64,000 nt of DNA, from assembly GCA_028720205.1 (NCBI GenBank), contig JAQYLE010000017.1, forward strand, positions 1 through 64,000, given 5' to 3'. A program made the translations under genes and the position numbers. The notes under the pieces are model-generated. The model was not told the origin of the DNA, searched no databases, and saw only the letters and a list, made by a program, of their open reading frames with translations. This DNA is from Clostridia bacterium. Its GTDB lineage: Bacteria; Bacillota; Clostridia; Christensenellales; Borkfalkiaceae. How positions within the stretch are numbered: the stretch's first letter is position 1; the number at the start of each line of letters is the position of its first letter. Positions 12,369 to 54,920 of the stretch are shown here, piece by piece.

Positions 12369-12443
12369 TGGAGCGGGAAACGAGACTCGAACCCGCGACA
12401 TTCACCTTGGCAAGGTGACGCTCTACCACTGAGCTATTCCCGC
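12369..12443 (-). tRNA. tRNA-Gly (anticodon GCC), CCA encoded
   Basis: Read on the minus strand, the gene starts GCGGGAATAGCTCAGTGG, has the anticodon arm TCACC-TTGCCAA-GGTGA with anticodon GCC, the T-arm GCGGGTTCGAGTCTCGT and ends TTCCCGCTCCA. All four stems pair. It is identical along its full length to the second copy at 26341-26415. Its own promoter lies at 12461-12489. Confidence 0.97.
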
Positions 12444-12460
12444 GTCTCCGTTACCCGTAT

Positions 12461-12489
12461 ATCATACCACGGGCGCGCCGAAAATGCAA
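12461..12489 (-). promoter_or_regulatory. Sigma-A promoter of tRNA-Gly
   Basis: Minus strand TTGCAT, 17 bases, TATGAT with TGG before the -10. An AAAAAACG stretch precedes the -35 and could act as an UP-like element. Confidence 0.7.
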
Positions 12490-12654
12490 GCGTTTTTTAG
12501 TTATAATACAAAAAACGCAAGAAAATAAATGACAAAATCAAACTGATTTTTGAATACTTGCATATTTCTTCCTTTTTTCGCGCAATCTGTTATAAAAAGA
12601 TACCGTAAATATTACGGAGCGTTTTTCCGTTTAAAACGGAAGAAAGGAGAAAAC

Positions 12655-13200
12655 ATGAAAGCAACGGGCATTGTAAGAAGAATAGACGAATTGGGCAGAG
12701 TGGTAATTCCGAAGGAAATCAGGCGCACGCTGCGCATCAAAGAAGGCGACCCTTTGGAAATTTTTACCGACAGGGACGAATTGATGCTGAAAAAATATTC
12801 TCCGATCGCCACGATCGAGAAATTCAGCGAGGCGGCGGCTAAATCGCTGAACGAATTGAGCGGAAGGCTTTCCGTGGTGTGCGATACCGACGGAGTATTA
12901 TACGCTTTCGGCGAAGGAAAAAGAGATTTTTCGGGCAGAACGCTTTCGGAAGAGATGGATAAAATATTAAAATCGCGCAAAAGTTACGTTTCATCGCAGG
13001 CTGAGGGCGGGGATATGCTTTCCATGACGTCGGCGAGAGAAGAAGGCATTACCGCGCAGGTGATCGTTCCCGTCGTATCGGGCGGGGACTGTTTAGGCGC
13101 GGTGGCGGTGCTGGATAAAGAAGAGGGCGCGAGAATCGATCAGAACGTGGTGAATCTGGCGCGGTTAACCGCCGAAATTCTTGCCAACCAATTCGAATAA
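12655..13200 (+). CDS. spoVT: Stage V sporulation protein T (SpoVT)
   Basis: SpoVT is an AbrB-type transcription factor that tunes sigma-G-dependent genes in the developing spore. The 181-residue protein has the AbrB swapped-hairpin DNA-binding domain (residues 1-52, starting MKATGIVRRIDELGRVVIPK and EIRRTLRIKEGDPLEIF) and a GAF-like C-terminal domain (~60-180). The ATG at 12655 is chosen because GAAAGGAGA precedes it; a longer reading frame from 12550 has no ribosome site. The length equals Bacillus SpoVT. It stands alone between two unrelated genes. Its presence is one of several sporulation markers here. Confidence 0.93.
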   Translation: MKATGIVRRIDELGRVVIPKEIRRTLRIKEGDPLEIFTDRDELMLKKYSPIATIEKFSEAAAKSLNELSGRLSVVCDTDGVLYAFGEGKRDFSGRTLSEEMDKILKSRKSYVSSQAEGGDMLSMTSAREEGITAQVIVPVVSGGDCLGAVAVLDKEEGARIDQNVVNLARLTAEILANQFE

Positions 13201-13252
13201 AACGGGATAAACGGCGCAAGCAATTCCGAATCCCTTTTACAATAGCAGAACG

Positions 13253-13294
13253 GTCGCAAAAAACAACCGCCGGCGGAATCGTCCGTCGGCGGTT
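13253..13294 (-). terminator. Terminator of the tandem CvpA-like gene
   Basis: AACCGCCGGCGGA (13265-13277) pairs with TCCGTCGGCGGTT (13282-13294), a 13-bp stem with an ATCG loop. On the minus strand it is followed by GTTTTTTG, so it serves the 13323-14555 gene. Confidence 0.75.
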
Positions 13295-13322
13295 AAACGG
13301 CCGGTAGAACGGAAAGTAAAAA

Positions 13323-14555
13323 TCAAGCGACGGATTCTATGGCGTTTTTCGCGTTTTCGAGATAGGGAAGAATGCGCCCGTCGAACAGCGATTTCAGCGA
13401 GGCGTTCAGCGGCGAATTTTCGTTGAACAACGAGGAGAAAGAGAATTTGCCCCGAAACACCTCCAGGTAATCGAGCGAAAACATAATTGCCGCCACCGCC
13501 GCCACCGCCGCTACGGCAAGGGCAAACGTAAAGATAAAGCATATGCTGCCGTCGATTACGCGGATTATCCCCGCGCGGCGGATCGTACGGGTTATGGCTT
13601 TCAGCAGCGCGTTGAGAATTACGAAGATGAGTATGAAAACAAGCGTAAGGCTGAGTCCCGTGGCAAGTTTTGCGAATAACGGCGCTTTTGAAGTCAGAGA
13701 TTCCGGCAATTTCAGAAACAACTTTTCGAACCATGCCGTTACCACGTTGAGCGGCGCTAAAAAGGTCTTGGTTTTCGCCCACGAAGAAAACGGAAGAAAA
13801 AAGCCGAAACCGACGGCGGCTAACAGACCTAACGTCATAAAAACAGAACGGATTCCGTTTAAAGCGCCTGCCCGATACCCGCAGTAAGAAACCGAAAGGA
13901 TAAATAAAATCGCCACCGAATCGAGCGCATACGCCTTTAAATACGGCAAAAAAGAATCGTAAAACGCAGAATCGTACAAAAACGAAAGACGGTTATTATA
14001 AAGCGCGGGAACGTACGAACAGACGAACACCGCCAGCGCAAGGATAAAGGCGATAAACACGCTTACGTTCAGAACGCAAGCCACGCCGCCCGAAAGGCGG
14101 GAAAAAGCGTTGGGTTTCCAGCGCTTGTCTATTTTCTTCTGCTCTTTTTTCCGTTCTGTTTCGTTGCTTTTTCTGGAAAGCAAAACGCCGCTTTCCAGTT
14201 TTTTTATGGCGCTCGCCTTTACGATGGCGTCGATTGTTCCGAACACGATATTCACCGCAACCGTTGCCGCTAAAAATAAGCCGAAAGATAAAATCGCGCC
14301 CTGGATATCCGCGCCGAGCGCGTTGACGTAAGGGATTTTTCCGAGCGGAATTTTTCCCGCATATTTCTTAAAGACGAAAAAGAACAGCGCAATTACCGCG
14401 AGGAATTTAATCCATCTGCGGCTCGTGCGGTAAAACCCCTTTGCCACGCCGCAGAAAAAGGCAACGAGGAGGATCAGCGCGCCCGCGCCGATTACGATAT
14501 AATATAAATTTTCCGAGATGAATTGCATAACGCCCGAAAGCAAAGTCGTCGTCAT
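13323..14555 (-). CDS. Tandem CvpA-like membrane protein, unknown function
   Basis: A 410-residue multi-pass protein. It appears to contain two consecutive CvpA-like units. Each begins with a membrane segment ending in a G-x(2-3)-G-x2-R/Y turn (unit 1 ~20-60, FFCGVAKGFYRTSRRW; unit 2 ~215-255, YCGYRAGALNGIRSVFM) and ends with an amphipathic stretch followed by a long alanine/valine-rich membrane segment (unit 1 ~165-190, RLSGGVACVLNVSVFIAF; unit 2 ~345-375, VIDGSICFIFTFALAV). CvpA proteins affect secretion and envelope homeostasis, but their mechanism is unclear. The ATG at 14555 has AAGGAG upstream; a longer frame to 14624 is less likely. A single-unit CvpA paralogue is at 27637. The assignment rests on pattern, not close similarity. 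Confidence 0.6.
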   Translation of the reverse strand: MTTTLLSGVMQFISENLYYIVIGAGALILLVAFFCGVAKGFYRTSRRWIKFLAVIALFFFVFKKYAGKIPLGKIPYVNALGADIQGAILSFGLFLAATVAVNIVFGTIDAIVKASAIKKLESGVLLSRKSNETERKKEQKKIDKRWKPNAFSRLSGGVACVLNVSVFIAFILALAVFVCSYVPALYNNRLSFLYDSAFYDSFLPYLKAYALDSVAILFILSVSYCGYRAGALNGIRSVFMTLGLLAAVGFGFFLPFSSWAKTKTFLAPLNVVTAWFEKLFLKLPESLTSKAPLFAKLATGLSLTLVFILIFVILNALLKAITRTIRRAGIIRVIDGSICFIFTFALAVAAVAAVAAIMFSLDYLEVFRGKFSFSSLFNENSPLNASLKSLFDGRILPYLENAKNAIESVA

Positions 14556-14661
14556 TTTTTTCTCCTTACACGTTACCGGTTTCGTCAGAAAGGCGCGCTT
14601 TCGACAGAGGCGGACGCTTAACATACGCTCTATCTATCGAGTGCGGCGGCCGACGGAAAGA

Positions 14662-16302
14662 TTATTTGTTGTAATTATCTTTTAACGAAACGATTTCCGA
14701 AAGCACGAGTCTGCCGTGTTCGTCCGTACATTTTTTAAAATACCCCACGCGCATCAACTGAAACGCCGTATCGTCTTTCGCCTCGGCAAGATACGGTTCG
14801 GCTTTCCCGTAAAAAATCGTCTCGCTTTGTTCGTTCATGCGTTCCGAAAAATCCTGCCCCGGATACGCCGCGTCTTTCAGCAGATAACCGTAGCGCCGTA
14901 TTTCCGCGTCAACGCCCGTTTTTGCGTTTACCCACTGAATCGTACCTTTCACTTTAATGCCGCTGGTATCGTGCGAAGAGCGGCTTTCCGGCACGTACGT
15001 GCAACGCAGTTCTTTCACCTTGCCGTCGCTATCGGTAATTACCTCGTCGCAGCGGATAATATACGCGTTTTTCAAACGCACGTAGCCGCCTTGTTTCAGC
15101 CGTTGATATTTAGGCGGCGGATCAAGCGAAAAATCGCTTTCGTCAATGTATAATTCATTGGAAAACGCCGTTTTTCTTACGCCCAGTTCCTCTTTTAACG
15201 GGTGGCGCGGAAATTCCAGTTCCTCTTCGCCCTCGTAATTGGTCAGTACCACTTTCAAAGGACTGATCACCGCCATGGCGCGCTCGGCGTTTTCGTTTAA
15301 ATTGTCGCGGATACACGATTCGAGATATCCGGATTCGCACACCGAATTGGCCTTTACTATACCCGCCTTTTCGCAGAACGAAAGAAGCGCCTCGGGCGGC
15401 ACGCCGCGGTTTCTTAAGCCCGCGATCGTGGGCATTCTGGGGTCGTCCCAACCGTGCACAAAGTTATCTTCCACCAGTTTTTTCAAATAGCGTTTGCTCA
15501 TCACCGTATTGGTGACGGCAAGCCGCGCGAATTCTATCTGGCGGGGTTTGGGCGAAAAGCCGAGTTGTATGCCCACCCAATCGTATAAGGGGCGGTGATC
15601 TTCGAATTCCAGCGTGCATAACGAATGCGTTACGCCTTGAAGATAGTCGCAGATGGGGTGCGCGTAATCGTACATGGGATAAATGCACCATTTATCCCCC
15701 GTTCTGTGGTGCGTACAGTGCAGAATCCGGTAAATCACGGGGTCGCGCATGTTCATGTTGGGCGAGGCCATGTCGATTTTTGCGCGCAGGCATTTTTCCC
15801 CGTCCGCGTATTTTCCCGCTCTCATTTCGCGGAACAGTTTCAGGTTCTCTTCCGCGCTGCGGTTTTTATACGGGCTTTCTGTTCCCGGCTGCGTAAGCGT
15901 GCCGCGCGTGGCGCTGATTTCTTCGGGCGAAAGGTCGTCGACAAACGCCTTTCCTTCCGTAATCAGGCGTTCGGCGTAAGCGTAAATCGTATCGAAAAAG
16001 TCGGAAGCGTACACTTCTTTCGCCCAATCGTAACCGATCCAGTGAATGTCGCGCCTGATGGCGTCGACGAATTCGGTCTTTTCTTTGGAAGGGTTGGTAT
16101 CGTCGAAAAAGAGGTTGCATTTTCCGCCGTACTTTTGCGCCGTGCCGAAATTCACAAGCATGCTCTTCACGTGCCCGATGTGCAGATAGCCGTTGGGTTC
16201 GGGGGGAAAGCGGGTCTGAATTTCGGTTACTTTTCCGCTTTCGATATCTTCGTTGATGATCTGTTCGATAAAATTCGTCGCTTCTTTCAGTGGTTCCGCC
16301 AT
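14662..16302 (-). CDS. glnS: Glutaminyl-tRNA synthetase
   Basis: GlnRS charges tRNA-Gln directly with glutamine. The 546-residue class I enzyme has RFPPEPNGYLHIGH (residues ~31-44, HIGH signature), FDDTNPSKE, CIYPMYDYAHPICD, LEFEDHRPLYDW and VMSKRYL, the KMSKS equivalent. The C-terminal anticodon-binding beta-barrels follow. GlnRS in Clostridia is patchy, since many use GatCAB instead; its presence fits a lineage with direct glutaminylation. ATG at 16302 follows GAAAGAGGAAAGAATC; promoter at 16380-16408. Confidence 0.96.
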   Translation of the reverse strand: MAEPLKEATNFIEQIINEDIESGKVTEIQTRFPPEPNGYLHIGHVKSMLVNFGTAQKYGGKCNLFFDDTNPSKEKTEFVDAIRRDIHWIGYDWAKEVYASDFFDTIYAYAERLITEGKAFVDDLSPEEISATRGTLTQPGTESPYKNRSAEENLKLFREMRAGKYADGEKCLRAKIDMASPNMNMRDPVIYRILHCTHHRTGDKWCIYPMYDYAHPICDYLQGVTHSLCTLEFEDHRPLYDWVGIQLGFSPKPRQIEFARLAVTNTVMSKRYLKKLVEDNFVHGWDDPRMPTIAGLRNRGVPPEALLSFCEKAGIVKANSVCESGYLESCIRDNLNENAERAMAVISPLKVVLTNYEGEEELEFPRHPLKEELGVRKTAFSNELYIDESDFSLDPPPKYQRLKQGGYVRLKNAYIIRCDEVITDSDGKVKELRCTYVPESRSSHDTSGIKVKGTIQWVNAKTGVDAEIRRYGYLLKDAAYPGQDFSERMNEQSETIFYGKAEPYLAEAKDDTAFQLMRVGYFKKCTDEHGRLVLSEIVSLKDNYNK

Positions 16303-16379
16303 GATTCTTTCCTCTTTCTTCGGTAAGTCGATTGTATTTTGTACGCCAAAACTACCGCATAAAATTACGGCTTATCATC

Positions 16380-16408
16380 ATTATACCACTTTTGCGGAAA
16401 AAATGGAA
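16380..16408 (-). promoter_or_regulatory. Sigma-A promoter of glnS
   Basis: Minus strand TTCCAT, 17 bases, TATAAT with TGG before the -10. It lies in the 388-base gap between glnS and glyQS, which otherwise holds only the glyQS promoter and leader. Confidence 0.6.
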
Positions 16409-16533
16409 TAATAATTTACGCTTTTTTATAAAAACAAAAAAATTTTTTTGGCGGATTTTTCAAAAACGGACTCGTTTTTTGTCTTTTTATCGTTCCAAAA
16501 GGCGTTTCGTGCGCGTTCGAAATGCAAAAGCAG

Positions 16534-16562
16534 TTGACTTCCCGCGGCGAAAAAGGTATAAT
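16534..16562 (+). promoter_or_regulatory. Sigma-A promoter of glyQS
   Basis: TTGACT, 17 bases, TATAAT. The ~120-base leader has no T-box signature sequence, so tRNA-sensing control is not apparent. Confidence 0.75.
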
Positions 16563-16690
16563 ATAACGGATATAAAAAATAAAAACAAATTTTCGTGCCG
16601 CGGGGCGGGTTCGGAATAAAAACGGGACGGCTTGCAAAAAAAGCGCGAAAAGGCGGATTAAATTATCAAACGATCAGGAGATACGGAAAA

Positions 16691-18091
16691 ATGGGCGAAA
16701 AACGTGCTGTGACGATGGAAAAACTGGTGTCGCTTTGCAAAAACAGAGGATTTATCTTTCCGGGCAGCGAGATTTACGGCGGGCTTGCCAATTCGTGGGA
16801 CTACGGCCCCTTGGGCGTAGAGTTGAAAAACAACGTCAAACGGGCGTGGTGGAAAAAATTCGTGCAGGAAAACCCGTATAATACGGGCGTGGACTGCGCT
16901 ATTCTGATGAATCCCCGCGTGTGGAAGGCTTCGGGGCATTTAAGCGGCTTTTCCGATCCGCTGATGGATTGCAAAAACTGTAAATCGCGCCACCGCGCCG
17001 ACGACCTTGTGGAACAATACGCGGAAAAACACAAGTTGAACGTTTCCGTGGAGGGAATGGACTCCGAACAGTTGCAAGCGTTTGTGGCGGAGCATAAAAT
17101 TCCCTGCCCCGTATGCGGTAAATCGGATTTTACGCCGATAAGAAAATTCAACCTGATGTTCAAAACCTTTCAGGGCGTTACGGAAGACACTACGAATACC
17201 GTATATCTCCGCCCCGAAACGGCGCAGGGTATTTTCGTCAACTTCGAAAACGTGCAGCGTTCCACCAGGATGCGCGTGCCGTTCGGCATCGGGCAGATAG
17301 GCAAGGCGTTCAGAAACGAGATCACGCCCGGCAACTTTACCTTCCGTCTGCGCGAATTCGAACAGATGGAACTGGAATTTTTCTGCAAACCCGGTACCGA
17401 CCTCGAATGGTTTGCCTACTGGAAAGAGTTCTGTAAAAACTGGTTGTTGTCCCTGGGTATGAACGAAGAGCATTTGCACCTTCGCGACCACTCGCCCGAG
17501 GAACTTTGCTTCTATTCCAAAGCCACTACCGATTTCGAATACGATTTCGCCTTCGGCCGCGGCGAACTGTGGGGCATTGCCGACAGAACGGATTACGATT
17601 TGTCGCAACACGCGAAAGAAAGCGGTAAGCCGCTGGAATATACCGACCCCGTAACGGGCGAAAGATACGTGCCGTACGTGGTGGAACCGTCGCTCGGCGC
17701 CGACCGCGTGGTGCTGGCGTTTTTAACCGACGCGTACGACGAAGAAGTGGTGGATAAAGAAAAGAACGACGTGCGCGTAGTGCTTCGGCTGCACCCCGCG
17801 CTTGCGCCGTATAAATGCGCCGTGCTCCCGTTGCAGAAAGGGCTTGCGGATAAGGCGGACGAGATCTACGCGAAAATCCGTAAGAAATTTTCCGCAACGT
17901 ACGACCTTACCGGTTCTATCGGCAAACGCTACCGCCGTCAGGACGAAATCGGCACTCCTTATTGCGTTACCGTGGATTTTCAGACGGTTGAGGACGGCAC
18001 CGTCACCGTACGCGACAGAGATACCATGGAGCAGATCCGCGTTTCGGTAGACGAGGCGATTGCCTATATCGAAGGGAAACTGGAATTTTAA
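16691..18091 (+). CDS. glyQS: Glycyl-tRNA synthetase, dimeric (alpha2) type
   Basis: Class II synthetase that charges tRNA-Gly, of the single-chain homodimeric type. The 466-residue product has [20 protein letters not shown] near the start, the zinc-type pair CKNC...CPVCG (residues ~97-145), motif 2 region [19 protein letters not shown], and motif 3 [11 protein letters not shown]...LGADRVVLA. The C-terminal anticodon-binding domain includes [14 protein letters not shown] 16691 is preferred, with CAGGAG 10 bases upstream; a frame extending to 16595 would run through the leader and is less likely. Both tRNA-Gly copies in this window are possible substrates. Confidence 0.96.
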
Positions 18092-18200
18092 GATTGCCGT
18101 TTAAAAAGAAGGCGTTTTTTCGCCGCTCGCCGTGGATAACGAAACGAGCGGACTCGACAGCGGCAAAGAAAAATAAAATGCGCGTTAAGCGCGCCTATAC

Positions 18201-18232
18201 CCCCGTCGTTTTCTACGGCGGGGCGTTTTGTT
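18201..18232 (+). terminator. Terminator after glyQS
   Basis: CCCCGTCGT (18201-18209) pairs with ACGGCGGGG (18215-18223), followed by CGTTTTGTTT. Confidence 0.75.
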
Positions 18233-18266
18233 TACCAAAAATTTGTTTTCCAAAAAGCGGAAAAAT

Positions 18267-19445
18267 TCAATTTCGCCGGCAACGGGAGCGGCTCATCCAG
18301 ATCACTTTGTCGTCGGCAAAGACCGCGCCGAGTTTTTTCTGCAGAGCGAGAGAGGCGGAATTATCTTCTATAACGTGCGCGTACGGCGTGCGCCCTTCCG
18401 CGATAACGGCGTTGATCTGAAAACTTTCGAGGTCTTGCGCGTAGCCGCGGCGGCGATATTCGGGAAAAATATACAAAAGCCCCATACTTCCTTCCGCATG
18501 TTGCCCGATATAGCCGACGAACGCTTCTTTATCTGCGCCTTCGCCTTGATCCGCAGGGGCAAAAGCGCAATAGATTTTTCCCCTTTGCACGAGTTGTTCA
18601 AGAGCCTCGGGAGATTCTCTGTCGTAGGTTCCGATAATTTCAGGCAAATGCGTTTCGGTTGCCTTTTCAAAGCGCAAAGCGCCCCGTACGAGCAGAGGCG
18701 CCGCAGGGCGGAATATAACCTGATAACAGGGCGTAACGGAATCGAAAGCGAAAAAATCGCGGCAGAACGCGGCGATTTTTTCGCCGTGGCACGCCAGCAG
18801 ACCGGTTTTTATGTTTTCGTATTCTTCCGGGCAGAGAAGAAGAATTCTGCGCGCCGCGTTTTCGTTTTCGGCGGCAAACACAAAAGTGCCGTGCTCGTAA
18901 AAGCCGCTTTCGTCCTGTAACAGAACGCCGTCTTCGCCCGCATAGACGAAGCGGCATTTTCCGTGCCGCGCCATATCCGCTACGTCCGCATAAGACGCGG
19001 GGTTTTTCGCAATAAATTTTTCGACGGTTTCAACCTGTTTTTCCCTCTTTGATTCCGAAAGGCGGCTTTTGTTGTTTTTCTGCCGTTTCACGGTAAAAAA
19101 CGCAAGAAACAAAAGTCCCGCGCACCCCGCGACGACTGCAAGCGTTATCGCAAACGTTTTCGTTTGCGCGGCGTTTTCCGTTTGTCCGTTCCCGTCGTTG
19201 AGGTTGGCCGAAAGGTCTTCGCCCGTTACGCTGCCGATCGAATCGAATTCTTCGCCCGACGAGGACGGGAAGCCGCTTTCCGCGCGCACGGCAAATTTCG
19301 CGCGGAAAAAAGAAACCGCTACGGCACAAAAACCGAGCAGAACGATCAGCGAAATAATAAGCAATCCTTTCCGCACACACCCCTTTATGCGCGGCTTAGC
19401 CGACGTTTTTAAAAACGTCGCATTTTTCCATTGAGTCATCGGCAT
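18267..19445 (-). CDS. Membrane-anchored GNAT-family acetyltransferase-like protein
   Basis: A 392-residue protein with an N-terminal membrane anchor of two helices (residues ~27-47 and ~98-119) flanking a ~50-residue acidic, serine/glycine-rich extracytoplasmic loop, then a long cytoplasmic part. The C-terminal ~140 residues are an FR47-like GNAT acetyltransferase domain: GLLYIFPEYRRRGYAQDLES is the acetyl-CoA loop (R/Q-x-x-G-x-A), followed by VIEDNSASLALQKKLGAVF. The central part is not recognised. The ATG at 19445 follows GGGAGGCAAA; a longer frame to 19655 would run through the parS site and the neighbouring gene. The substrate is unknown. Confidence 0.7.
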   Translation of the reverse strand: MPMTQWKNATFLKTSAKPRIKGCVRKGLLIISLIVLLGFCAVAVSFFRAKFAVRAESGFPSSSGEEFDSIGSVTGEDLSANLNDGNGQTENAAQTKTFAITLAVVAGCAGLLFLAFFTVKRQKNNKSRLSESKREKQVETVEKFIAKNPASYADVADMARHGKCRFVYAGEDGVLLQDESGFYEHGTFVFAAENENAARRILLLCPEEYENIKTGLLACHGEKIAAFCRDFFAFDSVTPCYQVIFRPAAPLLVRGALRFEKATETHLPEIIGTYDRESPEALEQLVQRGKIYCAFAPADQGEGADKEAFVGYIGQHAEGSMGLLYIFPEYRRRGYAQDLESFQINAVIAEGRTPYAHVIEDNSASLALQKKLGAVFADDKVIWMSRSRCRRN

Positions 19446-48480: not shown

Positions 48481-49512
48481 ATGAAAAAATCAAAAACGAT
48501 TTTAGTAACGGGCGGAGCGGGGTTTATCGGCTCCAACTTTGTTTATTATCTGTTGAAAACGCACCCGGAAGAAAAGATCGTGTGCGTGGATTGTCTTACG
48601 TATGCGGGAAATTTGTCCACGTTAAAAGAGGCGTTGCAAAACAAAAATTTCGTCTTTTATAAAACCAATATCTGCAACCGTAAGGGCATATATGAAATTT
48701 TCGAAGCGGAAAAGCCGGATATCGTGGTAAATTTTGCGGCGGAAAGCCATGTTGACCGCTCCATCGAAACGCCGGAAATTTTTCTTCAAACCAACGTGCT
48801 CGGCACGCAGGTGATGATGGACGCCTGCCGGACGTACGGCGTTGAACGATTTCATCAGGTTTCAACCGACGAAGTATACGGCGATTTGCCGCTCGATCGG
48901 CCCGATCTGTTCTTTACGGAAGAAACGCCGATCCGCGCTTCTTCTCCGTACAGCGCAAGCAAGGCTTCCGCCGATTTATTGGCGCAGGCGTATTACAGAA
49001 CGTACAATTTACCCGTTACCGTTTCCCGCTGTTCGAATAATTACGGGCCGTATCATTTTCCCGAAAAACTTATTCCGCTTACGATCGCCAACTGTCTGAA
49101 CGATCGGCCGTTACCCGTATACGGCGAAGGAAAAAACGTACGCGATTGGTTGTACGTGGAAGACCACTGCCGTGCGATCGATCTGATTATACGAAAGGGG
49201 CGCGTCGGCGAGGTGTATAACGTAGGCGGGCATAACGAGATGCGCAATATCGATATAGTAAAACTGATCTGCGACTATCTGGGCAAGCCGTATAGTTTAA
49301 TCAGGCACGTGGCGGACAGAAAGGGGCACGATATGCGTTATGCGATCGATCCTGCGAAAATTCATAACGAACTCGGCTGGCTGCCCGAAACGAAGTTTGC
49401 GGACGGGATACGAAAGACGATAGAATGGTATTTAACTAACCGTGAATGGTGGGAAACGATTATAAGCGGCGAATACCGCGATTATTACGAAAAAATGTAT
49501 AAAAACAGATAA
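48481..49512 (+). CDS. rfbB: dTDP-glucose 4,6-dehydratase
   Basis: Converts dTDP-glucose to dTDP-4-keto-6-deoxyglucose, the committing step to dTDP-rhamnose and other deoxysugars. The 343-residue SDR-type enzyme has NAD loop VTGGAGFIGSNF (residues ~9-20), SHVDRSIETPEIFLQTNVLG, the catalytic STDEVYGDL and YSASKASADLL (Tyr-x3-Lys), and SNNYGPYHFPEKLIP. The length is standard. rfbA, rfbC and rfbD are not in the window. It probably supplies sugar nucleotides to the polysaccharide locus 7 kb downstream. Confidence 0.95.
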   Translation: MKKSKTILVTGGAGFIGSNFVYYLLKTHPEEKIVCVDCLTYAGNLSTLKEALQNKNFVFYKTNICNRKGIYEIFEAEKPDIVVNFAAESHVDRSIETPEIFLQTNVLGTQVMMDACRTYGVERFHQVSTDEVYGDLPLDRPDLFFTEETPIRASSPYSASKASADLLAQAYYRTYNLPVTVSRCSNNYGPYHFPEKLIPLTIANCLNDRPLPVYGEGKNVRDWLYVEDHCRAIDLIIRKGRVGEVYNVGGHNEMRNIDIVKLICDYLGKPYSLIRHVADRKGHDMRYAIDPAKIHNELGWLPETKFADGIRKTIEWYLTNREWWETIISGEYRDYYEKMYKNR

Positions 49513-49551
49513 ATATTCTTATTTTTTACGAGGCAACAGGAGGACGGATTT

Positions 49552-50031
49552 ATGGATAAAATTTTATCGTTGCTTGAAAACGACGCGAAATTAACGCCCG
49601 AACAACTTGCCGCCATGCTTTCCAAAGAAGTGGGCGAGATACGCGATATTGTGGAAAATTACGAAAAAGAGGGCGTTATTTTAGGGTATAAATCCATCAT
49701 CGATTGGGATAAGACGGACCGGGAATTCGTAAACGCTTTAATCGAAGTGAAAGTAGTGCCGCAAAAGGACAAAGGCTTCGATTACATCGCCAAAAAAATT
49801 TACAACTATCCCGAGGTGCAGTCGCTGTATCTGATGTCGGGTGGATTCGATTTTGCGATTATGCTGGAAGGAAAAACGATGAAGGAAGTGGCTTTTTTTG
49901 TGGCGCAGAAACTTGCCACGATCGACGGAATTTCCGCGACGGCGACGCATTTCGTTCTTAAAAAGTACAAGGATAAAGGCGTTATTTATAAAAGCGACGA
50001 AGGCGATCCGCGCAACGATCTGATGTTATAA
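49552..50031 (+). CDS. Lrp/AsnC-family transcriptional regulator
   Basis: A 159-residue regulator with an N-terminal winged helix-turn-helix (residues ~1-50, MDKILSLLENDAKLTPEQLA) and a C-terminal RAM ligand-binding domain (~65-145, ALIEVKVVPQKDKGFDYIAK, SLYLMSGGFDFAIMLEGK). Family members sense amino acids. It is 15 bases from an aminotransferase gene and probably controls or is controlled with it. Ribosome site CAGGAGGACGG. Confidence 0.92.
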   Translation: MDKILSLLENDAKLTPEQLAAMLSKEVGEIRDIVENYEKEGVILGYKSIIDWDKTDREFVNALIEVKVVPQKDKGFDYIAKKIYNYPEVQSLYLMSGGFDFAIMLEGKTMKEVAFFVAQKLATIDGISATATHFVLKKYKDKGVIYKSDEGDPRNDLML

Positions 50032-50046
50032 CGGGCGGAAAGAGGC

Positions 50047-51216
50047 ATGATAGATTATAATTCGGTCATTCCCGAAAAAATCAGGGAAATAAAACCTTCC
50101 GGCATCAGGAAGTTTTTCGATATGGTGTCCACGATGAAAGGGGTGATCTCGCTTACGGTGGGACAGCCCGATTTCGTCACGCCCTGGCATATCCGCGAAG
50201 CGGCGATTGCCAGTTTGGTGGACGGCAAAACGTATTATACTTCCAACGCGGGCATGCAGGAGATCAGAAACGAAATTTCCTTGTATCTTTCGCGGCGTTT
50301 TTCGCTTGAATATACGCCGCGGGAAACGTTTGTTACGGTGGGCGGAAGCGAAGCGATCGACGTGGCGATGCGCGCGGTGCTGGCCCCCGGCGACGAGGTG
50401 ATTTTACCTCAGCCCGCCTTCGTCTGCTACGAGCCGATCGCTCAACTGTGCGGCGCGCGCGTGATAAAGATACCTACGAAAGAAGAAAACGCGTTTAAAC
50501 TGACGGCGGAAGAGTTGAAGAAAAACATCACGCCGAAAACCAAGTTGCTCGTGTTGCCTTACCCCAATAATCCCACGGGCGCGATTATGGAAAAGGCGGA
50601 ACTGGAAGAAATCGCCCGCGTGTTACGCGGAACGAATATCATGGTGCTTTCCGACGAGATTTATGCGGAACTCACTTACGCCGCGCCGCACGTTTCGATC
50701 GCTTCGCTCGACGGGATGAAAGAACGCACGATTCTGGTCAGCGGCTTTTCGAAGGCGTACGCAATGACGGGCTGGCGGCTCGGTTACGTCTGCGCGCCGG
50801 AGGCGGTGACGAAACAGATGTTGAAAATTCATCAGTACGCGATTATGTGCGCGCCCACCGTTTCGCAATTCGCCGCGGCGGAGGCGCTGAAAAACGGCGA
50901 CGTCGATATCGAATACATGAAGAGCGAATACGATTGCCGCCGCAAATTCATCGTGGACGGACTGAATAAAATCGGCTTGCACTGTTTTGAACCGAAAGGG
51001 GCGTTTTACGTATTTCCCCGCGTGAAAGATACGGGGTTAACAAGCGAAGCATTTGCGGAGAGGTTGCTTTCGGAATATAAAGTTGCGGTAGTGCCGGGCA
51101 CGGCGTTCGGCGATTGCGGCGAAGGGTACGTGCGCATATCGTACGCTTATTCCGTCGAACATATCCAGACGGCGCTTATCCGTATGGCCGAGTTTTTGGC
51201 GGGCTTGAAAAAATAA
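50047..51216 (+). CDS. Class I/II pyridoxal-phosphate aminotransferase
   Basis: A 389-residue fold-type I aminotransferase of the aspartate/aromatic aminotransferase group. Signatures: ISLTVGQPDFVTP (substrate region), YPNNPTGA (residues ~177-184), SDEIYAEL, and SGFSKAYAMTGWRLGY (~236-251), whose lysine binds PLP. Substrate specificity cannot be told. It is paired with an upstream Lrp-type regulator. Ends before the terminator at 51299-51350. Confidence 0.93.
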   Translation: MIDYNSVIPEKIREIKPSGIRKFFDMVSTMKGVISLTVGQPDFVTPWHIREAAIASLVDGKTYYTSNAGMQEIRNEISLYLSRRFSLEYTPRETFVTVGGSEAIDVAMRAVLAPGDEVILPQPAFVCYEPIAQLCGARVIKIPTKEENAFKLTAEELKKNITPKTKLLVLPYPNNPTGAIMEKAELEEIARVLRGTNIMVLSDEIYAELTYAAPHVSIASLDGMKERTILVSGFSKAYAMTGWRLGYVCAPEAVTKQMLKIHQYAIMCAPTVSQFAAAEALKNGDVDIEYMKSEYDCRRKFIVDGLNKIGLHCFEPKGAFYVFPRVKDTGLTSEAFAERLLSEYKVAVVPGTAFGDCGEGYVRISYAYSVEHIQTALIRMAEFLAGLKK

Positions 51217-51298
51217 ACATAAAAAAGAACGTCGGCATTCAGATTTTGCGGCTAAGAAAAGCCGTAAAAATGTAAAAAAGCGCAAAAATATACAAAAA

Positions 51299-51350
51299 AG
51301 AACGGAACGAACGAGGAAAAAATTTTTCGTTTCCGTTCTTTCTTTATTTT
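51299..51350 (+). terminator. Terminator after the aminotransferase
   Basis: AGAACGGAACGA pairs with TCGTTTCCGTTCT (one bulged T) around GGAAAAAATTTT, followed by TTCTTTATTTTTT. Confidence 0.8.
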
Positions 51351-51431
51351 TTGCGGCATATATTAGCATACAAAGCCATAACAAAGAGGCCGTGAAACAG
51401 AAAAACGGCAGGGAAAAAGGAGGCGTGTACC

Positions 51432-52376
51432 ATGAACGAAGAAATCGAATATGCCGAGATGTTGGAAATTCCCGTTTCCACCGTAAGCGTAACGGAAAAA
51501 CGCAGAAAATTCCGTAAGAGCAAAGGAGATCTGAAAGAAAAACTGATTTCCAAAGTCAACGGAAAAACGGCGGACGCGGCGAGCGCGTCTGCGGAAAGCG
51601 GCGAGACGTACTCGTATCCCGCTTATTCCGCCGATTTTTCGCGCGCGGAAAACAATGCGGAAACAATAAGCAATGCGTTTTCCGACGCGGAAAATTATAA
51701 ATACGCCGCCCGGGAAGCGGCGGCAGGTACGGCGGAAGCAAACGCTGCGAAGACGGAAAGCGAAAAATATTATTCCGCTTTTTCTACCGTAACGATAGAA
51801 AACGATATAGATCAAAACGAAAACGTCGCTCCGCCCGTACGCGGAAGAAGCAAAGCGGCGGGCAGGGTGATTGCGGTAGAGTTTGCGGCGGCGTGCTTAC
51901 TGTGCGCTACGATTTTTATGACCAACGTATTTATGCCGCAAAGCGGAATGAACGTATTTTTCCGTTCGCTCGGGCAGAAGGAAGAAACGCCCGTCAAAAA
52001 GAATTATACCGATTTTACGTTGCAGAGCGTTGTAAGCGATTTTGCCGAAGTGCCGCTCAGCGTTTCCGAAACGGGCGTGCTTTCCTTCCGCGGAAAATGC
52101 TGCGTATACCCCGCGGTAGACGGATCCGTGGCGGCGGTGACGAAAAACGAAAACGGCACGTACGACGTTAAAATATCGTATACGGAAGATTTTTACGGCA
52201 TGATCTGCGGACTCAACGAAGTGTATTACGCCGAAGGCGATAAAGTTTACGCCAATATTCCCGTGGGGTATACGCGCGGCGAAGAGGACGTGCAGGTGAC
52301 GATGTATTCGGGCGACGAAATGCTTACTTCGTTTACCGTGAACGATCAGAATTGTCTTTCGTGGGTTAATTCGTAA
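51432..52376 (+). CDS. Putative SpoIVFA-like partner of the M50 protease (degenerate M23 domain)
   Basis: A 314-residue protein with a long charged cytoplasmic N-terminus (~1-140), a single membrane helix (~143-165, VIAVEFAAACLLCATIFMTN) and an extracytoplasmic beta-rich C-terminal part (~205-314) that resembles a LytM/M23 fold: SFRGKCCVYPAVDGSVAAV and NGTYDVKISYTEDFYGMICG align with the strands that carry HxH motifs in true peptidases, but no zinc-binding histidines are present. In Bacillus, SpoIVFA has this design and holds SpoIVFB in complex. The gene is directly upstream of a SpoIVFB-type protease, supporting this role. Similarity is weak; SpoIIQ is the main alternative. Confidence 0.6.
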   Translation: MNEEIEYAEMLEIPVSTVSVTEKRRKFRKSKGDLKEKLISKVNGKTADAASASAESGETYSYPAYSADFSRAENNAETISNAFSDAENYKYAAREAAAGTAEANAAKTESEKYYSAFSTVTIENDIDQNENVAPPVRGRSKAAGRVIAVEFAAACLLCATIFMTNVFMPQSGMNVFFRSLGQKEETPVKKNYTDFTLQSVVSDFAEVPLSVSETGVLSFRGKCCVYPAVDGSVAAVTKNENGTYDVKISYTEDFYGMICGLNEVYYAEGDKVYANIPVGYTRGEEDVQVTMYSGDEMLTSFTVNDQNCLSWVNS

Positions 52377-52495
52377 CGATTTCGCGCGTTTTCCGCACGT
52401 TTCCCGCGCGGTCAATAAAAAAGCGCGGAAAGCGCACCCGCGGAAACGGCAAAAAATCAGGGCGAAAACCAAGCAGAAAATAAGGCGAAAACGGG

Positions 52496-53464
52496 ATGTT
52501 TAAAACCAAACGGACAAATAAAAAGGAGGGGCGGGCGTTCCGCGTCCACCCTCTTTTTTTTCTGGCGGGGATATATGCGTGTTTTACAAAATCTTTGCCG
52601 CTGTATCTGGGCGCGGTAACGGTGGCGTTGCAACACGAATGCGCGCATTCGTTCGCCGCGGCGCGGCTTGGTTTTCGGTTAAATCAGGTGGTGCTCACGC
52701 CTTTCGGCGCAACGATATCGGGCGATTTAAGCGGCATATCGCTGAAAGACGAAATTTCCGTGGCGATGGCGGGGCCGTTGTGCAATCTGGTTACGGCGCT
52801 GTTTTTCGCGGCGCTCTGGTGGTTGTTTCCCGATACCTACGCGTATACCGATACGGCGTTTTATCTTTCGCTGTATATCGGCGCGGGCAATTTGCTGCCC
52901 TTTTATCCGCTGGACGGCGGAAGAGTGCTGCGCGCGGCGATTGCGATGAAAACCGGAGAAAAAACGGCGGAAAAAATCTGTCGGAGCATCACGCTTGTCG
53001 CGGGGGCGGCGGTATTTTGTCTTGCCGCGGCGCTTTTCGTAAAAAAAACGTTAGCGGCGCCGTTGTTTGTCTTTTCGGTTTTTCTTATTGTCGGCGCGCT
53101 TTCGGGCGGCGGTCGGTACGAAAAAATAACGCCCGATTTTACGGCGGCGTTTTTGCGCGGCGTGGCGGAAAAGCGAGTGGCGATCGACGCTTCCTGCTCG
53201 TTGAAACGCGCGCTTTCGTTTTGCGAAAGCGGAAAGTATCTGCGCCTCGACGTATTTAAAAACGGCGAAAAAATTTTTGAAACGGACGAGAAAGCGTTGA
53301 CGGACTTTTTATCGGGCGAAACGCTGTATCTGCCGCTTTCGGCGATGATCGGCAAAACAGAGAGTCGTGCGGACAATACCGCTATGCCGCATGAGGAGTC
53401 CGGCAAATTTCTCCGCAACTGTATAAATTCGCATAAAAACAAGAATAATACCCATACTTGCTGA
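52496..53464 (+). CDS. spoIVFB: Site-2-type membrane metalloprotease (SpoIVFB-like, M50)
   Basis: A 322-residue intramembrane zinc protease. The N-terminal RVHPLFFLAGIYAC matches SpoIVFB; the zinc motif is HECAH (residues ~49-53, HExxH) and the distal ligand is in NLLPFYPLDGGRVLRAA (~133-149). About five membrane helices lie between ~18 and ~205, and a C-terminal CBS-like region (~215-285) follows. SpoIVFB cleaves pro-sigma-K; sigK is not in the window. The very C-terminus (KNKNNTHTC) is low-complexity. Paired with a SpoIVFA-like gene. Confidence 0.85.
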   Translation: MFKTKRTNKKEGRAFRVHPLFFLAGIYACFTKSLPLYLGAVTVALQHECAHSFAAARLGFRLNQVVLTPFGATISGDLSGISLKDEISVAMAGPLCNLVTALFFAALWWLFPDTYAYTDTAFYLSLYIGAGNLLPFYPLDGGRVLRAAIAMKTGEKTAEKICRSITLVAGAAVFCLAAALFVKKTLAAPLFVFSVFLIVGALSGGGRYEKITPDFTAAFLRGVAEKRVAIDASCSLKRALSFCESGKYLRLDVFKNGEKIFETDEKALTDFLSGETLYLPLSAMIGKTESRADNTAMPHEESGKFLRNCINSHKNKNNTHTC

Positions 53465-53507: not shown

Positions 53508-53578
53508 ATCTTTCGCCGGTTTCTAACAAAAAACTGTAATCGCCCGCTACATATTTTTTCTGAAAGGAGGAAAAAAAT

Positions 53579-53980
53579 ATGCAGAAGGTGGAAATTTGCG
53601 GCGTGGATACGTCGGGGCTCCCTAAACTGACTGCGCAGGAAAACGAAACGCTGATGCGCGAATTGAAGGCGGGCGACGCGCAGGCGCGGGAAAAATTTAT
53701 CGTAGGCAATATGCGCCTTGTTCTTTCTTTAACCAAGCGTTTTCGCGCAAAAAACGCGCAGGCGGACGATTTGTTTCAGGCCGGGTGCGTGGGGCTGATT
53801 AAGGCTATCGACAATTTCGACGTTTCCGTCGGCGTGAAATTTTCCACATACGCCGTGCCGATGACGTTTGCAAAGCGAAACGCCCCTCTGCCTACGGAGG
53901 ACGAAATTATCGATGAATACCAAAGAAACGCTGCCGCTTACCCGCAAAGCCGCTGTTTTTCAGGCGATTACGCTGCTTGA
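53579..53980 (+). pseudogene. sigG: Truncated sporulation sigma factor sigma-G (region 2 only)
   Basis: The first ~105 residues match sigma-G: KVEICGVDTSGLPKLTAQEN at the N-terminus, GNMRLVLSLTKRF, DDLFQAGCVGLIKAIDNFD and VGVKFSTYAVPM. At this point, where sigma-G continues into region 2.4 and then regions 3 and 4, the sequence changes abruptly to an unrelated ~30-residue stretch and stops at 53980 (133 residues). Neither alternative frame restores the sigma-G pattern downstream. A strong ribosome site (AAAGGAGG) remains. Without regions 2.4-4 it cannot recognise promoters. Either sporulation is lost, or the second half lies elsewhere and is joined by rearrangement, or the assembly is chimeric. 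Confidence 0.8.
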
Positions 53981-54920
53981 AAAAGAGGGTAACCACGAAG
54001 AAGAAATACGGATACTTAAAAAATTTTCCGCCGGATTGCCCGCGGTGCAATGGACTAAAGAGGTCGCCGCGGACTGTATCGACAACTTTTTGCTGGAAAA
54101 CGGCAGGTTGCCCACGGTGACGGAACTTGCGCAGAATAAAGAACTGCCGTTTCATACGAGTTTTAAATATCTGTTCGGCATGCCCGCGCGCAAGTGGCTG
54201 GAAAAGCGCTATTCTTCCACGCGCGATATGCCCGTTGATTCGTCAGCCTCGCCGGTTTTACCTGTTTCTCCTGCCTCGCCTGTTTCGTCTGTTTTGCCCA
54301 AAACTTCGCGAAAACGGGCGCTTTTATCGGCGTATCGGGTGCTTGACGGCGAGGCGCGGGAGCGGATTAAAGATATGCTGGACGAATACCCGATTACGCA
54401 GTGGAACGATAAAAATATGGCTGACTGTATAGTGACGTATTATGAAAAATATCGGCGCGTTCCCGCGGAAGAGGAAATGAAACGCTCGGACGAGTTGCCT
54501 TATATCGGCGTATTTAAATACCGCTGGAAGACCACCTATCTGCAATGGCTGAAAGAACGCTTGCCCGTCTTGTACCGGCTGTATTGCGACGAGCGCACGC
54601 AACAAAGGGATTACGCGGGCGAATTCGTGCGCGAGTATAAAAGGATTCGCCCGAAGAACGAGGCGGATTTCAACAGAAAAAGAAACAGGGCGCTTTGTTG
54701 CGGTACGGAGCGCGTCAAGCGCGCTTTGAACGTTACCCGCTGGGCGGAACTTTTAAGCGCTTGTCGTCTTGAAGTTTGCAACGGCGCGGAGGAACGGGCG
54801 GAAATCGAGCGCGACAAAATCAAATCGGTGCGTATCATCGCGGTGGACTGCGGCGAAAATATCTTTTTCAGGCAATACGCCGCGGAAGAAGAACGGCGGT
54901 TTTTCGAGGCGGAGGGATAA
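53913..54920 (+). CDS. Repeat protein resembling homing-endonuclease-associated repeats, unknown function
   Basis: A 335-residue basic protein that begins inside the truncated sigG frame. It contains three related ~55-residue units: unit 1 (~47-106, QWTKEVAADCIDNFLLENGR then LPFHTSFKYLFGM), unit 2 (~155-215, QWNDKNMADCIVTYYEKYRR then LPYIGVFKYRWKT), and a more divergent unit 3 (~230-280, FVREYKRIRP then ERVKRALNVTRWAELL). The W...C...LP-x(4-6)-FKY/W pattern recalls repeats that accompany homing endonucleases and act as small DNA-binding units. No nuclease motif is seen. A serine/proline linker (SPVLPVSPASPVSSVLP) separates units 1 and 2. ATG at 53913 with GGAGG upstream. Confidence 0.65.
   Translation: MNTKETLPLTRKAAVFQAITLLEKEGNHEEEIRILKKFSAGLPAVQWTKEVAADCIDNFLLENGRLPTVTELAQNKELPFHTSFKYLFGMPARKWLEKRYSSTRDMPVDSSASPVLPVSPASPVSSVLPKTSRKRALLSAYRVLDGEARERIKDMLDEYPITQWNDKNMADCIVTYYEKYRRVPAEEEMKRSDELPYIGVFKYRWKTTYLQWLKERLPVLYRLYCDERTQQRDYAGEFVREYKRIRPKNEADFNRKRNRALCCGTERVKRALNVTRWAELLSACRLEVCNGAEERAEIERDKIKSVRIIAVDCGENIFFRQYAAEEERRFFEAEG

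Follow-up and report, generated by a model that had tools for sequence, protein, structure and literature searches.

What interrupts sigG, which encodes the master regulator acting late in the developing spore, in the genome of a gut Clostridia bacterium, and where is the rest of the gene? The stretch analyzed here, referred to as the window, is 64 kb of contig C17 of this genome, and the promoter, gene, and att features of sigG and ORF1 described below lie on its forward strand. In the open reading frame starting at 53579, the match to SigG models is confined to residues 2-97 (NF006071, E 1.6e-40; TIGR02850, E 6.2e-38), and the truncated frame reaches a stop after 133 aa. Its codons 1-94 (53579-53860), corresponding to regions 1.2-2, are preceded by a Shine-Dalgarno sequence, AAAGGAGG (53563-53570), and are 85% identical to the SigG of G006 used as the query. 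Divergence from SigG begins at codon 94/95 (53860/53861), directly after YAVP, which is the same junction as in other split sigG genes. The tail of the frame (53861-53980) is unlike SigG of any congener. An initial sequence-only reading had described an intact sigG turning into unrelated sequence, with a new gene starting inside the tail behind its own ribosome site, and both points are confirmed. The new gene, ORF1 (335 aa, 53913-54920), is the first gene of the element described below; its ATG at 53913 is 53 bp past codon 94, and GGAGG is found at 53896-53900. Most of the 56 other genomes of the genus have one full-length 255-aa SigG that is 76-100% identical to the G006 query, so that the loss of regions 3-4 in the window genome is real relative to the genus.

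A sigma-F/sigma-G-type promoter, GCATA-N17-CATACT (53431-53458), is found 148 bp upstream of sigG; its function is predicted from the consensus. It is the only match to G[CT]ATA-N14-18-CATACT on both strands of the window. Ten congeners have a motif of this type 56-145 bp upstream of sigG. Among genomes with a broken sigG, this pattern is found upstream of the gene only in the window genome and in G049. Five genes exist between sigE and sigG in the window (48481-53464): rmlB-like, an Lrp-type regulator, an aminotransferase, spoIVFA-like, and spoIVFB-like. In the congeners examined, unlike in the window, sigE and sigG are nearly adjacent.

The sequence around the break resembles a recombination site. 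A CC core (53858-53859, in codon Pro94) is followed by an arm, GATGACGTTTGCAAAGCGAAACGCC, the right arm of the element, and the two together extend over 53858-53884. Against a matrix derived from five other elements, this arm reaches 13.8 bits. In the window contig, 3 of the 311,922 positions do as well, and uninterrupted sigG genes reach no more than 0.1. The score and its rarity indicate that the window junction is an attL of this kind of element. The break in sigG is thus the left junction of a site-specific insertion, not random decay.

SigG residues 1-94 were searched against 398 genomes of the family. Among the roughly 160 matches listed, at least seven genomes have frames of only 102-140 aa: the window genome (G000), G238, G574, G498, G226, G504, and G597. 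The 3' half of sigG exists as a separate frame from MILGEI in five of these (G238, G574, G498, G226, and G504); in general, 3' halves of split sigG begin at MI(L/I/V)GEI. In G238, which belongs to the same family, the two halves are on one contig and on the same strand, in the order 5' half, ORF1, and, 9.2 kb on, 3' half. The element between them encodes, besides ORF1, an XRE regulator, an ECF-like sigma factor, a large serine recombinase (492 aa), a HipB/HipA-like pair, and a TIR/NB-ARC/TPR protein. The HipB/HipA-like and TIR/NB-ARC/TPR genes (L139, 11556-15249) resemble toxin-antitoxin and defence cargo. The other four genomes also have both halves of the gene, each with a matching element arm. 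A sporulation gene in two in-order parts is therefore found on one contig in G238 and also in four more genomes; the window holds the 5' junction only.

In every 5' half the similarity to SigG ends with codon 94, and in every 3' half it starts again at Met95. The element arms are imperfect inverted repeats around the CC dinucleotide, as in an attP site, matching at 16-20 of 25 positions (6.4 +/- 2.2, at most 15, in 2,000 controls). When the flanks are joined at CC, a complete in-frame 255-aa SigG is obtained in all five relatives having both halves. The pN/pS of the split sigG halves (0.21) equals that of intact sigG (0.20), which is expected if split sigG is still used or if the insertions are recent. 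The skin-like programmed split proposed in the sequence-only reading is strongly supported by these relatives as far as the separate 3' half, the flanking recombinase, the paired att arms, and the exact restoration of the frame are concerned, while the programmed excision itself is what we infer from them.

In G049, sigG is broken over two contig ends (L080 on C38 and L081 on C25) exactly at the att core, as a mixed population of excised and integrated forms or a shared k-mer would give. This genome is ambiguous, because its contigs simply end at the site, and it was left out of the count of split genes. Breaks of this kind, the draft nature of metagenome assemblies, and a shift in composition to the right of 55 kb in the window are what could be said for a chimeric join inside sigG made during assembly. 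However, the same codon, arm motif, and ORF1 recur in independent assemblies, which makes a chimera at the window junction unlikely, and each element has two complete arms. We regard an assembly artefact as very improbable.

The large serine recombinase, with Resolvase, Recombinase, and zinc-ribbon domains, is encoded by the elements of G238, G574, G498, and G504 and is absent from the window assembly. The four split genomes with an assembled element all have it, the 51 other genomes that were searched do not, and ORF1 and the recombinase are the only genes common to all four assembled elements. When the recombinase alone was used to scan one genome per species (84,980 species), 16 loci were found, and half of a sigG adjoins the recombinase in 15 of them. 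Named carriers include Candidatus Borkfalkia faecavium (L141) and Candidatus Gallimonas merdae (L142). Together with G000, G226, and G597, these 15 loci bring the genomes with a split sigG to at least 18. A recombinase of the same clade at L146 (10001-11536) has no sigG within its 10-kb flanks; it is flanked by genes for a WYL/DeoR-type regulator and for an aspartate-semialdehyde dehydrogenase-like protein. At L149-L151 and L153, whose records bear the titles Oscillospiraceae, Oscillibacter, Clostridiaceae, or uncultured bacterium, the recombinase belongs to a distant clade (31-33% identity), and sigG is split at the same codon. The L149 record, 'Clostridiaceae bacterium strain 9', has no metagenome-assembly label and may represent an isolate. 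At L151 (8772-10486, Oscillospiraceae), the recombinase gene abuts the 5' half of sigG in the opposite orientation; at the other three loci it precedes the 3' half. At L148 (431-9693), the recombinase and the sigG 3' half come right after branched-chain amino acid genes (ilvD, leuCD, and leuB-like), which represent either an element cargo of housekeeping genes or a rearranged region.

Recombinases that are 96-99% identical are found in hosts with SigG 3' halves of only 72-86% identity, indicating that the element moves between species. These near-identical recombinases in divergent hosts, together with the patchy occurrence of the element, a conjugation-type ATPase in the G504 element, and a cargo that differs from element to element, are also what would be expected if sigG were simply a conserved landing site for a selfish insertion. 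Without excision linked to sporulation, carriers would be spore-negative until the element left by chance or for transfer. The exact in-frame restoration in five of five pairs, with both halves intact, argues against this explanation, as does the position of ORF1 directly behind the sporulation promoter of sigG, and we consider it possible but rather unlikely. No phage genes were noticed in the G238 element. Viral contigs yielded a single relative of the recombinase (32% identity, without sigG) and no good relative of ORF1, and this lead was rejected.

The window's own genome has not yielded the other end of its element. The assembly (1.94 Mb in 82 contigs, 96% complete) has intact SigF, SigE, SigK, SigH, RpoD, and a SigB-like factor. 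One option in the sequence-only reading placed the 3' half elsewhere in the genome, as a separate frame for SigG regions 3-4 flanked by a recombinase or by a shared repeat; such a frame and a recombinase are found in the relatives, but in the window assembly there is neither the sigG-type recombinase nor any match to regions 3-4, even at E 10, and the presence of the 3' half elsewhere in this assembly was rejected. A second intact sigG, named in the same reading as evidence against a split, is also absent from the assembly. As assembled, contig C17 extends 102 kb past ORF1 through AT-rich DNA. On C17 as a whole, the only similarity to element genes other than ORF1 is a weak one to ABC transporters. 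Right after ORF1 (55-135 kb of the contig; from 55219 in the window), GC falls from about 50% to 34-46%. The exopolysaccharide cluster in this stretch is accompanied by three serine recombinases of other kinds (C17:78818-82831). The missing attR arm would resemble GGCGTTTCGCTTTGCAAACGTCATC and would be located ahead of the sigG 3' half. An arm of this type was searched for along C17, C75, and the first 20 kb of C78, and these locations were rejected, with scores of at most 15 (23-30 for true arms). Contig C75 (L097/L098) has prophage-like genes and two adjacent serine recombinases (12388-18849) near a ylmC-like gene (22016), the usual neighbour that follows sigG in several congeners. This prophage was rejected as the other end of the element, since it has no sigG sequence and its recombinases share only 21-25% identity with that of the sigG elements.

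The 3' half and the recombinase of the window genome may therefore be unassembled or lost, and its copy of the element may be incomplete or a remnant. If the right end (recombinase, attR, and sigG 3' half) was later deleted or rearranged, the strain would be without SigG and its sporulation incomplete. Besides the missing genes and the 102 kb without an attR-like arm, the host-like GC of ORF1 (0.52, compared with 0.32-0.47 elsewhere) suggests long residence, and the pN/pS of the window's sigG 5' half is slightly raised (0.23 versus 0.16). On the other hand, ORF1 has its full length and its ribosome site, the promoter of sigG is still there, and the genes for SigF, SigE, and SigK are intact. 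In other split genomes, too, contigs end at att sites, so that the absence of the attR contig is not surprising here. A remnant is a serious possibility, although we place it somewhat below an even chance. A non-sporulating lineage, as suggested in the sequence-only reading, may apply to this particular genome, from whose assembly the 3' half and the recombinase are missing. The window's own copy may still be excisable.

ORF1 homologues are the first gene after the sigG 5' half wherever this stretch has been assembled, and in the other elements they are also preceded by a purine-rich Shine-Dalgarno sequence. The window ORF1 is 51% identical to that of G504 and 30-32% identical to those of G574, G498, and G238. 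No relative of ORF1 is found in 40 kin genomes, and a search of 396 genomes within the order gave just one further strong match, in G238 (E 2e-22). The three homing-endonuclease-type repeats noted initially correspond to three similar helical units. The Pfam HNH_repeat (PF18780), found in homing endonuclease associated repeat proteins, is matched by two of five ORF1 homologues (best E 0.00076), but the window copy is below the threshold. The predicted structure (pTM 0.34) consists of helical repeats and has no match in PDB. The helical repeats and the matches of the two homologues suggest that ORF1 may bind DNA. Note that Pfam scans detected no nuclease domain in ORF1 or its homologues and that the junctions are att sites of a serine recombinase; a homing-type insertion, whether by an endonuclease, an intron, or an intein, is therefore not supported. 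The two genes shared by all four elements match the attL-rdf-int-attR unit of SPbeta, which makes ORF1 a candidate recombination directionality factor. From its position and co-conservation, we put this role just short of an even chance.

Taken together, the window probably has the left end of a mobile element that is inserted at Pro94/Met95 of sigG (in the conserved YAVPMI motif) by a large serine recombinase and would be excised in a skin-like manner. What the genomes show is that sigG is split at a shared codon, that the arms are paired, that joining restores the frame, and that the sharing of ORF1 and the recombinase is exclusive. The role of ORF1 and the timing and cell type of excision are what we infer. 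Recombination by this enzyme between the element's attP and the attB site in sigG would leave attL (sigG 5' half and ORF1) and attR (recombinase or cargo and 3' half). In the integrated state, ORF1 sits 40-55 bp behind the sigG fragment, and in the window downstream of the sigma-F/sigma-G-type promoter, which would read through the 5' half into ORF1. ORF1 would then act as, or control, the directionality factor, attL and attR would recombine, and the element would leave as a circle, resulting in an intact sigG. Most junctions of the ORF1/recombinase type with enough upstream sequence have an outward-facing sigma-A-type promoter, TTGNNN-N17-TANNNT, 72-100 bp before attR (a loose match in L152; absent in L147). 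In the circle, this promoter would be placed in front of ORF1 and drive it. Reintegration would be hindered if a constitutive promoter on the circle drove a directionality factor, which counts against the model. So does the size of ORF1, which at 179-335 aa across elements exceeds that of known directionality factors (58 aa for SprB, for example). A tentative version of the model, somewhat less likely than not, places excision in the forespore: sigma-F turns on the sigG promoter, ORF1 made by read-through drives excision, sigma-G is produced, and the circle in the spore reintegrates after germination or is lost.

Similar elements are known in other sporulation genes. The skin element in sigK (SpoIVCA in B. 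subtilis; CD1231, with the directionality factor CD1234, in C. difficile) is the same in-frame split of a sigma factor gene with a large serine recombinase, precise att sites, and a candidate directionality factor inside the element (PMC5025042). The skin target, however, acts in the terminal mother cell, while sigG acts in the forespore, whose chromosome is inherited; in addition, ORF1 is behind the promoter of the target gene itself, and the cargo differs. SPbeta in spsM (SprA, SprB) has the same attL-rdf-int-attR order, inverted-repeat att sites, and a gene restored by excision (PMC4191935, PMC6957869). SPbeta is a phage excised during sporulation only in the mother cell, unlike the elements described here, with a conjugation-type ATPase in one and no phage genes noticed in another. 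Compared by description only, gin in gerE of B. cereus ATCC10987 is also a non-phage serine-recombinase element splitting a small sporulation gene, but it has three recombinases and its target is a mother-cell regulator (PMC5595907). Skin, SPbeta in spsM, gin in gerE, vfbin, and others are found almost exclusively in mother-cell genes, and the spore keeps the element (PMC6957869, PMC4191935, PMC5025042). Excision from such targets is not inherited and costs the element nothing (PMC6957869). A mother-cell target is a trait shared by almost all known cases rather than a strict definition (PMC6957869), and the elements described here depart from it, since their target is sigG.

Sigma-G is a forespore factor (PMC6957869), and if sporulation is made possible by excision, the excised state would be inherited unless the circle reintegrates. 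This leaves two options, a cycle of germ-line excision and reintegration or an element that suppresses sporulation or is cured with it. If the circle is lost, each spore generation would cure part of the population. No report of a split or interrupted sigG was found in the open-access literature. Several gut Clostridia, including the window genome, carry an insertion at one exact codon of sigG, and elements targeting a forespore sigma factor in more than one Clostridia family contradict the mother-cell rule. A sigG that seems to be missing from a metagenome-assembled genome need not mean that the organism does not form spores. Carriers would seem to need DNA excision in the very cell that becomes the spore, which poses the question of how an element survives if sporulation of its host demands that it leave the germ-line chromosome.
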